From positions 62,001 through 126,000 of the IMG/VR virus record IMGVR_UViG_3300006880_000001: a DNA stretch of 64,000 bases, one strand, 5' to 3'. The position numbers and the translations under genes are program-made. This stretch comes from a virus. Shown one piece after another: positions 15,086 to 62,142 of this stretch; the first letter of the stretch is position 1; each line of letters opens with the position of its first letter. Below the pieces are notes generated by a model. That model worked only from the letters and a program-made list of their open reading frames with translations. It was not told the origin of the DNA and made no database searches.

Positions 15086-15484
15086 ATGTCGACCAACCTT
15101 CCGCCGGAGCAGATCGTCATAGCGGCCCTGCACGACGTCATCTCGCGTGGATACGTTGTCGGCCCGAGCCAGACGTGGGGTGTTCGCCCCTCGTCCCATG
15201 GAACCTGGGCGCCTGACGGCGACCCGATCTGCGCGATCGGTGCGGTCCTCCTCGTGATGCAGCCCTGCACGGACATCGGGACCTGGGCCGAGACCGCGGC
15301 GGTCGCGCTGGGGACGTCGAAGGCGTGGACGAATGGGGTCTCCTGTGGATTCGAGGACATGCACCCCTCGGTCCTGGGCCCATGCTCGGATGACAACGTG
15401 GCCGGGTACGAGTTCGGCCAGCGCCTGCGCAAGATGGTCCCGAGCCTGCTCCTCCGGTATCGACAGACGGTCACCCCGGTCTGA
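15086..15484 (+). CDS. Unknown protein
   Basis: 132 aa, soluble, with scattered Cys and Trp. A helical N-terminus is followed by DPICAIGAVLLVMQPC and a DDNVAGYEFGQRLRKMV end that recalls small phage proteins annotated only as hypothetical. Predicted leaderless start. A class A promoter for the next gene lies inside its last codons. Confidence 0.7.
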   Translation: MSTNLPPEQIVIAALHDVISRGYVVGPSQTWGVRPSSHGTWAPDGDPICAIGAVLLVMQPCTDIGTWAETAAVALGTSKAWTNGVSCGFEDMHPSVLGPCSDDNVAGYEFGQRLRKMVPSLLLRYRQTVTPV

Positions 15485-15490
15485 TAGCTT
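15469..15490 (+). promoter_or_regulatory. Class A GTCAC promoter
   Basis: GGTCAC, 7-nt spacer, then TGATAGCTT. Hexamer TAGCTT ends 6 nt before the ATG at 15497. Confidence 0.65.
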
Positions 15491-15496
15491 CTGGGC

Positions 15497-16012
15497 ATGC
15501 CACGTGGGCGGTTCGCACCGGACGAGAGCGGGCACCTGTACGGTCGCCTTACCGTCATCGCCAGAGAGCCGAATCGCGGCAGCTACGCGACCTGGCGCTG
15601 TCGTTGCGTGTGCGGCAACGAGGTCGTCGTGACGGCGACCATGCTGCGTTCTGGCAATACGACTTCGTGCGGCTGCCTGCGGACCGAGAAGACTGTTGCG
15701 CGGAGCTTCCGCCACGGAGCCGCTCGCCGTAGGAGGATCTGGCCAGAGTACTACGTCTGGGCCGAGATGGTGCAGCGTTGTACGAACACCGCGCATCCCC
15801 AATACCGCGACTACGGTGGTCGAGGTGTAGCGGTGGAGTTCCGATCGTTCGACGAATTCATAGAAGAAGTTGGACGGCGCCCGTCGCCAGACCTGACGAT
15901 CGATCGGATTGACAACGATCGTGGCTACGCGCCAGGGAACGTCAGATGGGCCACGTACACGGAGCAACGCCTGAACCAACGGCGCATGAAGCCCTCCAAG
16001 GGAGGTATTTGA
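15497..16012 (+). CDS. HNH homing-type endonuclease
   Basis: 171 aa. A zinc-binding N-terminal part (CRCVCGNEV...SCGCLRTEK) is followed by YGGRGVAVEFRSFDEF, then LTIDRIDNDRGYAPGNVRW and ATYTEQRLNQRR, the signature of phage HNH/AP2-type endonucleases (IDRIDN.GY.PGN.RWA). Free-standing and with its own class A promoter. Related in layout to the gene at 53317. Expected to nick or cut DNA at a specific site and spread itself. Confidence 0.85.
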   Translation: MPRGRFAPDESGHLYGRLTVIAREPNRGSYATWRCRCVCGNEVVVTATMLRSGNTTSCGCLRTEKTVARSFRHGAARRRRIWPEYYVWAEMVQRCTNTAHPQYRDYGGRGVAVEFRSFDEFIEEVGRRPSPDLTIDRIDNDRGYAPGNVRWATYTEQRLNQRRMKPSKGGI

Positions 16013-23755: not shown

Positions 23756-24190
23756 ATGGAAACCGGCGTCCTCATCGCCAGGGGCATGGCCCCCCTCTAC
23801 TGGCACTTGCCGGAAGGGCGAACCTCCGGTAGCTTGCCCGACTCGCGCGTGCTGTGGGACACCATCTGGCTCCACCGCCACGACCTGGAGGGCTTCGCGC
23901 ATACCCACCCCGGCGGCGGCCAGCCGTGGCCGTCGACCGAAGACATCACCACCTTCTTCGCCATCGAGCTCGCGCTCGGGCGCAAGCTGACCTGGTGGAT
24001 CAGCAACCAGGAGCGGACCGTCGTCGTCGTCACCACCGACGACTACGAATTCGACCACGGCGACACGCGGGTCACGAAGTCCGGCGAGGTCATCGAAGGT
24101 CAGAAGTCCCGCCGTCAATCGTATCGCGTCTTCCCGATCCCCGACGAACCGTCCTGGGTCGCCGAACTTCGCCATCAATCCAACCTCTGA
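23756..24190 (+). CDS. JAMM/JAB-family metallopeptidase (deubiquitinase-like)
   Basis: 144 aa, a minimal JAB domain. The zinc-site signature H-x-H-P-x(n)-S-x2-D is intact: H49, H51, S60, D63 in GFAHTHPGGGQPWPSTEDI. A possible upstream Glu (E2 or E20) would complete the site. JAB enzymes cleave isopeptide or peptide bonds after ubiquitin-like C-terminal Gly. It is followed 9 nt later by a ubiquitin-like gene whose product ends Gly-Arg, which would need exactly such trimming. Start: ATG after AAGGAG; an in-frame GTG precedes it. Confidence 0.85.
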   Translation: METGVLIARGMAPLYWHLPEGRTSGSLPDSRVLWDTIWLHRHDLEGFAHTHPGGGQPWPSTEDITTFFAIELALGRKLTWWISNQERTVVVVTTDDYEFDHGDTRVTKSGEVIEGQKSRRQSYRVFPIPDEPSWVAELRHQSNL

Positions 24191-24199
24191 AGGAGCACC

Positions 24200-24496
24200 A
24201 TGAACGAACTGATCCATGTCGAGGGCCGCCGCGAGCTGGTGCGCGACGACGAAGCCCGCGTCAACATCACCTACAAGGGCGAGAACGGGGACCTACCGGA
24301 CACCATCACCTTCGATGCCACCGACGCTGACGTCAAGACGTGGGTCACGGAGGCAGTCCGGGGCGGGCACGTTCCGGGCATCGCCGCCGACCCCGGCGCG
24401 AACTTCCGCGACTTCGTCGTCGATCGCTTCACGCCCACCGACGCGCGGCCGTTCAACCTCATCTCGATCCGCCCGAAGACGCCGTTCGGCCGATGA
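24200..24496 (+). CDS. Candidate ubiquitin-like (beta-grasp) modifier
   Basis: 98 aa. Predicted order beta (ARVNITYKG), beta (DTITFDAT), helix (DADVKTWVTEAVRGG), beta (FRDFVVDRF), beta (FNLISIRPKT), which is the beta-grasp pattern. It ends TPFG-R, so removal of one residue would expose a C-terminal Gly as in ubiquitin precursors. Size and position between a JAB peptidase and an E1-like gene recall the ubiquitin-like protein C of the PRTRC plasmid cassette. No sequence-level match to ubiquitin is claimed. Confidence 0.7.
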   Translation: MNELIHVEGRRELVRDDEARVNITYKGENGDLPDTITFDATDADVKTWVTEAVRGGHVPGIAADPGANFRDFVVDRFTPTDARPFNLISIRPKTPFGR

Positions 24497-24849
24497 TGAA
24501 CGTCGTCAAGCGATGCCCGGGGTGTGGCGCTACGTGGGTTACGCCCCCGGGATCGATCATCAAATGCCGGAACTGTGGGACGACCTGCGCCGGCACGACG
24601 TCCGTCGCGTTTACCACTGACGCCCCCACGGTACAGACGGCGGACGGTGATGAGACCGCAACAGCGCTCCAACTGGCCGACGCCAAGGTCACGGAGGCCA
24701 GGGATGCGCTGCAGGCTCTCGTCAAGGCGAACCCTGCCCTCGTCCATCCTCAGTGCCGCACGTGGCAATGTCGTCGGTGTCGGCTACGCAACACGATCGA
24801 GATGCTCGAGTGCTGGGAGCCACTTTCACAGGAGGCGAAGAAGTCATGA
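24493..24849 (+). CDS. Double zinc-finger protein with NZF-like half
   Basis: 118 aa, overlapping the ubiquitin-like stop (ATGA). N-terminal zinc ribbon C8-x2-C11...C25-x2-C28. C-terminal finger W91-x-C93-x2-C96-x3-N100-x6-C107 follows the RanBP2/NZF consensus except that the last Cys is Pro110; C88 could substitute. NZF fingers in eukaryotes bind ubiquitin. A helical linker joins the two. The role as reader or ligase-like adaptor for the adjacent ubiquitin-like protein is inference. Confidence 0.75.
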   Translation: MMNVVKRCPGCGATWVTPPGSIIKCRNCGTTCAGTTSVAFTTDAPTVQTADGDETATALQLADAKVTEARDALQALVKANPALVHPQCRTWQCRRCRLRNTIEMLECWEPLSQEAKKS

Positions 24850-25510: not shown

Positions 25511-25640
25511 GAAGGGTAAGGGGACCGGGTCCCCGCCAACTGCTAAATTGGTCCACCCCGACAACGCCTCTCGCTGGCCTCGGCTAGCACACGGCAGCTG
25601 TCTACAAGAACGGTCGGTTCGACTCCGACACCCTTCCCCA
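25511..25640 (+). tRNA. tRNA-like gene, anticodon GCT, with 52-nt insertion
   Basis: Acceptor GAAGGGT pairs fully with ACCCTTC, discriminator C, encoded CCA (25638-25640). D-arm GGGG-ACCGGGT-CCCC; anticodon arm GCCAA/TTGGT with an 8-nt loop containing GCT (25542-25544), nominally Ser. T-arm GTCGG-TTCGACT-CCGAC. Between anticodon and T arms lie 60 nt, of which 25557-25608 is nearly identical to the insertion in the next tRNA-like gene. Total length 130 nt. It may be a tRNA with a giant variable region, a tRNA carrying an intron-like element, or a tRNA-mimicking noncoding RNA. Confidence 0.65.
25557..25608 (+). repeat. 52-nt insertion, copy 1
   Basis: 48 of 52 positions match the copy at 25718-25769. 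The core can fold as GCTGG-CCTCGG-CTAGC, flanked by GCC...GGC. It ends CTGTCTACAAG. It sits in the variable region of the first tRNA-like gene. Confidence 0.8.
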
Positions 25641-25670: not shown

Positions 25671-25803
25671 CGGGGGGACGTCGCCTGGTGGCGACACTTT
25701 CATATGACGAAAGCAATCCCGACAACGCCTCTCGCTGGCCTTGGCTAGCACATGGCGCCTGTCTACAAGGAAGCCGTGACAGGTTCGATTCCTGTACCCC
25801 CGA
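25671..25803 (+). tRNA. tRNA-like gene, anticodon ATG, with 52-nt insertion
   Basis: Acceptor CGGGGGG pairs with ACCCCCG at six of seven positions; D-arm GTCG-CCTGGTGG-CGAC; perfect anticodon arm CTTTC-ATATGAC-GAAAG (anticodon ATG at 25704-25706, nominally His); perfect T-arm ACAGG-TTCGATT-CCTGT. The CCA is not encoded (CTG follows). The variable region is 65 nt and includes the second copy of the insertion. A34 in a His anticodon is unusual, which adds to the doubt that this is an ordinary tRNA. Confidence 0.6.
25718..25769 (+). repeat. 52-nt insertion, copy 2
   Basis: Differs from copy 1 by two C/T changes, both in predicted loops, and an AG/GC dinucleotide. The flanking tRNA sequences are unrelated, so the block moved or was conserved as a unit. 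Confidence 0.8.
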
Positions 25804-61863: not shown

Positions 61864-62142
61864 ATGGTGACTCTTGGCCTGGCGCAGCTGGAGCGTTGGG
61901 AGCAGGTTCCCGACTTCGAGCCGAGCAACGTCAACCAGCTGGTCATCCAGGACCACACGGGCATCCCCGGGGCGTACACCTCCGGGGGCTACTCGTCGTT
62001 CTTCTTCAACCGGATCGAGCCGGGAGGGACCAGCTTGTACGGTGCAACCGACGATCGGCGGCCCCTCCGGGCCTTCCTGGCTGGCGCGGCGGTGGCCGGG
62101 TTCTTCACCTGGCTGTTCGCTGGCTCCTGCAAGCGACGCTGA
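61864..62142 (+). CDS. C-terminally membrane-anchored protein
   Basis: 92 aa. Polar aromatic N-terminal region (SGGYSSFFFNRIEPGGTSL), one membrane helix (FLAGAAVAGFFTWLFAGSC) and a KRR end. GGGAGGTCCT before the ATG. The tail-anchored layout matches the proteins of the 1-10 kb block, supporting a common structural role. Confidence 0.7.
   Translation: MVTLGLAQLERWEQVPDFEPSNVNQLVIQDHTGIPGAYTSGGYSSFFFNRIEPGGTSLYGATDDRRPLRAFLAGAAVAGFFTWLFAGSCKRR

Follow-up and report, generated by a model that had tools for sequence, protein, structure and literature searches.

A putative ubiquitin-like modification cassette encoded beside tRNA-like RNAs in phages and myxobacteria

Introduction

A 64,000-nucleotide stretch of virus DNA (positions 62,001 to 126,000 of the IMG/VR record IMGVR_UViG_3300006880_000001; hereafter the window) codes for a 98-residue ubiquitin-like protein (Ubl) ending in Gly-Arg, in the company of a JAB/JAMM metallopeptidase, an E1-like adenylating enzyme, a protein with a vWA domain and a further protein that we call B. 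This raises the question of whether the Ubl is made as a precursor, trimmed to its glycine by the peptidase and then activated, and, if so, what it would be attached to. The source record is 129 kb in length, and its phage origin agrees with matches to PHROG families such as DNA polymerase, a Dda-like helicase, Sak4, thymidylate synthase and others. The answer that we favor, and hold to be fairly probable, is a self-contained Ubl modification cassette, with trimming by the JAB peptidase, activation by the E1-like enzyme, conjugation and a target in a particle formed by the vWA protein and a tRNA-like RNA. Comparison of the homologous loci supports this reading through an invariant-glycine precursor, a JAB-dependent tail, complete JAMM and E1 sites, a fixed gene order and a linked structured RNA.

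The Ubiquitin-Like Protein and Its C-Terminus

A preliminary description of the locus, made from the sequence alone, had claimed a β-β-α-β-β order for the Ubl and a C-terminus reading TPFG-R, and had named structure prediction and homologue alignment as checks. The translation does end in ISIRPKTPFGR, from an open reading frame (ORF) with a Shine–Dalgarno sequence, AGGAG, just upstream. The AlphaFold2 model, with a mean predicted local distance difference test score (pLDDT) of 91, recovers the claimed order in a β-grasp-like fold, with strands at residues 18–25, 28–31, 72–77 and 86–92 and a helix at 42–55. Fold matches in the PDB obtained with Foldseek and VIA-align are mostly β-grasp domains—the UBLCP1 and NLE1 Ubls, PB1, ubiquitin, SUMO, PI3K adaptor- and Ras-binding domains and ESX-5 chains—each of them weak and none individually significant (best Z 5.3). 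Hence, the fold assignment rests on the topology of the confident model together with the general character of the match list. One close relative of the Ubl occurs in the viral structure library (62% identity, E 5e-12).

The homologue alignment bears out the predicted contrast between the penultimate glycine and what follows it. The 71 distinct homologues share a C-terminal motif of the form [RQ]-P-[KRQ]-x-x-[FY]-G, with the glycine present in 71/71, far beyond chance, whereas the next position holds 14 different residues or none at all (entropy 3.31 bits, against 0 for the glycine). The tail beyond the glycine is absent in 14 of these proteins, a single residue in 25, 2–14 residues in 24 and more than 14 residues in eight, with a maximum of 61. 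An invariant glycine followed by a free tail is, as far as the sequences can tell, the pattern of a processed Ubl precursor, and it occurs here in a protein with the β-grasp topology in its AlphaFold2 model. Certain long tails resemble zinc ribbons or acidic stretches. Those resembling half or whole zinc ribbons, with CxxC pairs, belong to the precursors at 15233–15565 of locus L021, 7058–7423 of L024 and 15067–15555 of L043, and they recall the eukaryotic fusions of ubiquitin to ribosomal proteins.

The JAB Peptidase and Its Link to the Tail

The peptidase encoded directly upstream of the Ubl bears the JAMM signature HxHPx7SxxD in the form HTHPGGGQPWPSTED. In the alignment of its homologues (A8), Glu2, His49, His51 and Ser60 are conserved in at least 90% and Asp63 is invariant, such that the full JAMM zinc site is kept. 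While 49 of 53 homologues match the Prok-JAB family (PF14464), the window copy taken alone falls below the Pfam cut-off (18.4 vs. 25 bits), and the nearest solved chain, RPN11, is not a significant match (E 0.07). Of the two potential starts of the ORF, 23708 and the ATG at 23756, the latter has the better ribosome site.

The occurrence of the tail goes with that of the JAB gene. In all four cassettes that lack JAB (L078, L079, L080 and L085), the Ubl is encoded ending exactly at the glycine, whereas in those with JAB it is tailed in 57 of 67 and tail-less in 10 (Fisher p 0.001, a value uncorrected for kinship, with the JAB-less side consisting of four loci from metagenome-assembled genomes). 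No other relative of the JAB family was found in these four assemblies, and two control assemblies each show exactly one, the one in the cassette. Trimming of the precursor by JAB before adenylation by the E1-like enzyme fits both the glycine/tail pattern and the association with JAB loss, and we regard it as well supported on these comparative grounds. The ten cassettes that keep JAB beside a Ubl encoded in mature form imply that the peptidase probably does more than trimming, with deconjugation being one possible second role.

The E1-Like Enzyme, the B Protein and the vWA Protein

The preliminary description had the E1-like enzyme next to the Ubl as well. The JAB gene is indeed the immediate upstream neighbor of the Ubl gene, but on the other side a 117-residue ORF with zinc-ribbon-like CxxC pairs intervenes before the E1 gene. 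Residues invariant among 47 E1 sequences comprise those of the motif GxGALGS (G14, G16 and G19), Asp37, Gln49, Lys60, Asp100 and Cys155. The enzyme, a member of PF00899, thus has the nucleotide-binding glycine motif and the Asp, Lys and Gln residues of an adenylating enzyme, and its nearest solved relatives are MoeB (4e-17), Uba4, ThiF and the SUMO E1. Cys155 is the candidate for a thioester-forming cysteine.

No family library recognizes either the Ubl or B, and B has no above-chance match in Pfam, NCBIfam, PHROG or PADLOC. The model of B consists of two OB-like domains, a coiled coil and a small C-terminal domain of α-β-β-β-α order, which contains an invariant Cys278 within the motif DxGICL. 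Its fold matches are weak, the best being an OB-type match to the proteasomal ATPase Mpa (Z 5.1); dsRBD-like matches are also weak. Despite the invariant cysteine, no E2 fold is found among the Foldseek and VIA-align matches listed for B, though matching this weak does not exclude an E2.

In every complete locus, the vWA protein is the first one encoded in the cassette. A TROVE/Ro60 label for this 626-residue protein was considered and dropped: PF05731 is absent at E up to 10, and alignment by hhalign to eight true TROVE proteins covers the vWA part only, with the N-terminal halves alone giving P 0.07. A true TROVE protein coexists with the cassette vWA protein in the Virgisporangium genome, where the two lie on separate contigs (L124 and the cassette locus L087, respectively).

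Distribution of the Cassette

Searched for on its own, the Ubl finds nothing in the viral contig collection, and its homologues were instead obtained by way of E1, vWA and B queries. L002 and a named virus are found by the E1 search; the latter, Rctr197k, is a large phage related to PaBG that comes from a methane-oxidizing enrichment culture. The vWA and B alignments find 54 and 19 phage loci, respectively. A profile from two Ubl sequences locates a Ubl ORF in nearly every locus. The genes follow the order vWA-B-JAB-Ubl-E1 in essentially every complete locus, on about 55 phage contigs and also in bacteria. Searching 84,980 bacterial and archaeal genomes with B yields 46 further loci with the same cassette, mostly from Myxococcota. 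Among the loci from bacterial assemblies, L078–L084 and L086 are close to the phage forms and may represent phage contigs that were placed in metagenome-assembled genomes by binning; the forms from Myxococcus, Archangium, Pyxidicoccus and Virgisporangium are more distant. In the Myxococcus-type loci read in detail, unrelated genes separate JAB from the Ubl.

Some loci call for separate mention. The huge phage LR756511.1 (595 kb; L004) has a distant cassette with vWA, B, JAB and E1 genes; no Ubl ORF was recognized between its JAB and E1 genes, and it may lie elsewhere or be too divergent. A record titled Comamonas sp. KCTC 72670 (L089) agrees with the Myxococcus locus L096 in both gene content and gene order, and either its title looks wrong or the assembly contaminated. 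ARAGORN finds genes for transfer-messenger RNA in three phage cassette loci (18469–18829 of L032, 16803–17160 of L035 and 11865–12243 of L044), with tags such as ANDNSIADRLVA.

The tRNA-Like RNA

Downstream of the E1 gene, the window has two tRNA-like sequences that share an insert of about 50 nucleotides. Neither ARAGORN nor Rfam at its gathering thresholds detects them, and the exact insert sequence is absent from other viral contigs, the family being visible to a structure model only. A scan for long tRNA-like folds recovered many further copies adjoining other cassettes. They are about 125–145 nucleotides long, with a hairpin of about 50–60 nucleotides inserted between the anticodon-like arm and the T arm; in an alignment of 40 of them (A14), the motifs CTC and ACAMG are invariant. 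The covariance model trained on these 40 copies, R1, has a match with E no higher than 0.01 in 43 of 56 phage cassette loci, on the same strand as the cassette, with several of the remaining loci being truncated; the 40 training sequences match by construction and make up a minority of the 122 matches listed. Ordinary tRNAs account for a few low-scoring matches in tRNA-rich loci. Across eight whole phage records totaling 2.7 Mb, R1 has no match farther than about 9 kb from the cassette, and the 129-kb record of the window has its two copies only. R1 also matches in the cassette loci L079–L082, L084 and L086 from bacterial assemblies, at E up to 2.6e-8.

The fold is supported by covariation. 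Of the 32 pairs in six helices, 30 change on both sides, and the covariation score is 0.654, against 0.211 ± 0.013 for shuffled and at most 0.223 for slid alignments. Covariation supports the acceptor, D, anticodon-like and T helices, although the sequences were chosen for acceptor, D-arm and T-arm pairing, and the support for those three is therefore partly selected. The two helices of the insert were not selected for pairing; they show 74% and 86% of cells paired and double changes at all pairs. At E up to 10, no match to the Y RNA or YrlA families is found in Rfam, which lists only tRNA and a poor tRNA-Sec. Two identities may be considered for the tRNA-like RNA, that of a new particle RNA and that of a small tRNA intron of a new kind.

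Gene Layout at the Locus

All genes of the cassette region, namely those for the vWA protein, B, JAB, the Ubl, the zinc-ribbon-like ORF and the E1-like enzyme, lie on the plus strand (Table 1). Three small ORFs, one on either side of the B gene and one between the Ubl and E1 genes, lie among the conserved cassette genes in this phage only.

Table 1. Positions of the cassette genes, motifs and tRNA-like RNAs in the window.
Feature	Position	Strand	Basis or remark
vWA protein, 626 aa	20174..22054	+	VWA_2 PF13519, 1.1e-8; N-terminal part of ~400 aa without recognized family
Accessory ORF, 123 aa	22064..22435	+	No homologue in any other cassette locus; specific to this phage
B protein, 316 aa	22432..23382	+	Family of 53 (alignment A7); AlphaFold2 pLDDT 91.9
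Accessory ORF, 117 aa	23397..23750	+	No homologue in any other cassette locus; specific to this phage
JAB/JAMM metallopeptidase, 144 aa	23756..24190	+	JAMM residues conserved; 49/53 homologues match PF14464
JAMM motif HTHPGGGQPWPSTED	23900..23944	+	Sequence and conservation
Ubl precursor, 98 aa	24200..24496	+	ORF, homologues, AlphaFold2 model
Ubl C-terminal motif RPKTPFG	24470..24490	+	Gly97 codon 24488–24490; Arg98 codon 24491–24493, the residue proposed for trimming
Accessory ORF, 117 aa, CxxC pairs (zinc-ribbon-like)	24496..24849	+	Weak zinc-ribbon matches; no homologue in other loci; specific to this phage
E1-like (ThiF/MoeB-type) adenylating enzyme, 197 aa	24846..25439	+	PF00899, 3e-21; invariant Cys155, codon 25308–25310
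tRNA-like RNA copy 1	25511..25636	+	R1 88.5 bits, E 5e-16 (copy in training set); fold z -2.8
tRNA-like RNA copy 2	25671..25802	+	R1 67.8 bits, E 1.7e-11 (copy in training set); fold z -3.6

Relation to Known Systems

The closest known counterpart is operon type 6d (Iyer, Burroughs and Aravind 2006, PMC1779556), with which the cassette shares a small stand-alone β-grasp protein with a highly conserved C-terminal glycine, encoded beside a JAB peptidase, an E1-like enzyme and a cysteine-bearing partner. Unlike type 6d, the present cassette has a short JAB without a JAB-N domain, begins with a vWA partner and has a linked family of tRNA-like RNAs alongside. It is further set apart by being phage-borne with an E1, by a Ubl and a B protein that match no library and by variable precursor tails with JAB loss as a control. 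We take type 6d to be the PRTRC system of NCBIfam; membership in the latter was rejected, with no match to the models for A, B and C and the ThiF score far below the NCBIfam cut-off (29 vs. 144.75 bits).

Bil systems combine E1-type activation with removal of the C-terminal conjugate by a JAB peptidase. The same pairing is seen in Cap2 and Cap3 of CBASS type II (PMC10097602); unlike both, the cassette has its own Ubl and a separate small E1, with no recognizable E2 and no CD-NTase. Membership in CBASS type II was rejected, as a PADLOC scan gives only a distant E1–E2 similarity of the E1. JAB-linked Ubls with a terminal glycine were predicted in bacteria and in lambda-type tails in 2006, together with JAB processing for lambda TAPI/TAPK (PMC1779556). 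This pair shares with the cassette a phage-encoded Ubl with a terminal glycine beside a JAB domain, but it has no E1, has NlpC fused and lies among tail genes.

On the side of the RNA, the bacterial Ro60 ribonucleoprotein operon rsr-yrlBA-rtcBA (PMC7790460) likewise pairs a protein whose C-terminal end is a vWA domain with a neighboring RNA, YrlA, that contains a tRNA-like domain. The conserved core of the cassette differs in having Ubl machinery instead, with no detectable TROVE domain, Y RNA family match or RtcB; with the first two lacking, the resemblance to Ro60/YrlA is a likeness and not membership. The vWA-MoxR conflict systems (Kaur et al. 2020, PMC7159879) share vWA proteins linked to JAB, E1 and Ubl, but the conserved core here is without a MoxR ATPase, FtsH, RING, EAD or caspase-like partner. 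We found no description of the cassette in the open-access literature (subscription journals and preprints lay outside the scope), and none of an association between Ubl signaling and tRNA-like RNA in the open-access papers searched. A 2021 survey of jumbo phages (PMC7824862) mentions TROVE proteins, while the Ubl and E1 words searched for are absent there as phage systems; none of the searched words is present in a paper on huge phages (PMC7162821).

Working Model and Alternative Explanations

For the self-contained cassette, we infer the cleavage, adenylation, thioester, conjugation, role of B, RNA binding, targets and biological purpose as follows. The Ubl would be made as a precursor that JAB cuts after the glycine of RPKTPFG, in this phage removing a single Arg. 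The E1 would then adenylate the exposed glycine and probably hold the Ubl as a thioester on Cys155. The Ubl would be attached to a target, with B, on account of its invariant Cys278 and OB-like domains, being the best candidate for transfer or target recognition, and JAB could also remove the Ubl from the target. That target is most likely a component of a ribonucleoprotein composed of the vWA protein and the tRNA-like RNA encoded beside the cassette; hence, the system would sense or handle damaged or foreign RNA, possibly tRNA, during infection. A more specific proposal, to which we give somewhat less than an even chance, is that Ubl conjugation in large phages and myxobacteria is built around the RNA, with attachment and JAB removal controlling the assembly or the targets of the vWA/tRNA-like-RNA particle. 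The insert of about 50–60 nucleotides would, in such an RNA-centered arrangement, either provide the particle with its binding platform or represent a small tRNA intron of a new kind.

Several observations weigh against the modification cassette. It has no known target within it, no E2 or E3 was recognized among its genes and B gave no match to an E2 fold. The association between JAB and the tail rests on four loci from incomplete assemblies, with kinship among L078–L080, and JAB is retained in the ten cassettes whose Ubl requires no trimming. The RNA is linked to the cassette genetically only, and the Myxococcus-type loci give weaker R1 matches, which recur at a single position roughly 1 kb upstream of the vWA gene. 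Finally, the E1 is of the minimal ThiF/MoeB type without a separate cysteine domain, which makes sulfur transfer possible.

ThiS, MoaD, CysO and Urm1 are sulfur carriers that receive a C-terminal thiocarboxylate from an E1. The main rival explanation would add the Ubl to their number, with the sulfur donated possibly to the tRNA-like RNAs or to phage tRNAs and with JAB removing the tail or a small adduct. The closeness of the E1 to MoeB, Uba4 and ThiF, the many tRNA genes that flank the cassette and the presence of JAB genes in sulfur-linked operons too (PMC1779556) speak for such a carrier. However, no rhodanese, cysteine desulfurase or thiolase gene is seen as a conserved part of the cassette, and the E1 is too short for a rhodanese domain. 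The Ubl also ends in a single glycine after Phe and not in the usual GG, and we consider a sulfur carrier unlikely, if still worth keeping in mind.

The cassette could alternatively be a defense or counter-defense module of the CBASS type II or Bil kind, in which the Ubl would be attached, in the course of infection, to a protein of the phage, the host or a rival phage to disable it. Ubl-type conjugation with E1 and JAB does belong to known antiphage systems (PMC10097602), and the E1 is distantly similar to the PADLOC E1–E2 models (5e-12). There is, however, no other convincing PADLOC match in the cassette, which is encoded by phages in most loci and is without a nucleotide cyclase, caspase or other effector, making this a rather improbable explanation. 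It is more doubtful still that the Ubl works unprocessed and unconjugated, with RPKTPFG serving as a binding peptide and the tail varying neutrally: the motif does extend seven residues back from the glycine, beyond what a bare tail would need, but the absolute conservation of that glycine at the border of unconstrained sequence, the intact JAMM and E1 sites and the association of JAB with the tail all point away from it. A tail-assembly pair like lambda gpI (Ubl) and gpK (JAB-NlpC), suggested by weak matches of PHROG tail protein families to JAB (8.5e-5), can be set aside almost entirely given the accompanying E1 and the cellular copies of the same cassette in Myxococcus contigs, as well as the lack of an NlpC domain and of tail genes recognized nearby.

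Implications

It is a hallmark of eukaryotes that ubiquitin precursors need processing by a dedicated protease before they can be activated. The phage and bacterial family described here shows a eukaryote-like precursor logic along with a natural control, in that the Ubl is encoded in mature form where the JAB gene is missing, and its compact set of three proteins (Ubl, JAB and E1) is open to direct test. The occurrence of the gene set in dozens of phages and in myxobacteria, mostly beside tRNA-shaped RNAs, suggests an undescribed RNA-linked Ubl tagging system, and the linked structured RNA would tie ubiquitin-like signaling to tRNA-like molecules.
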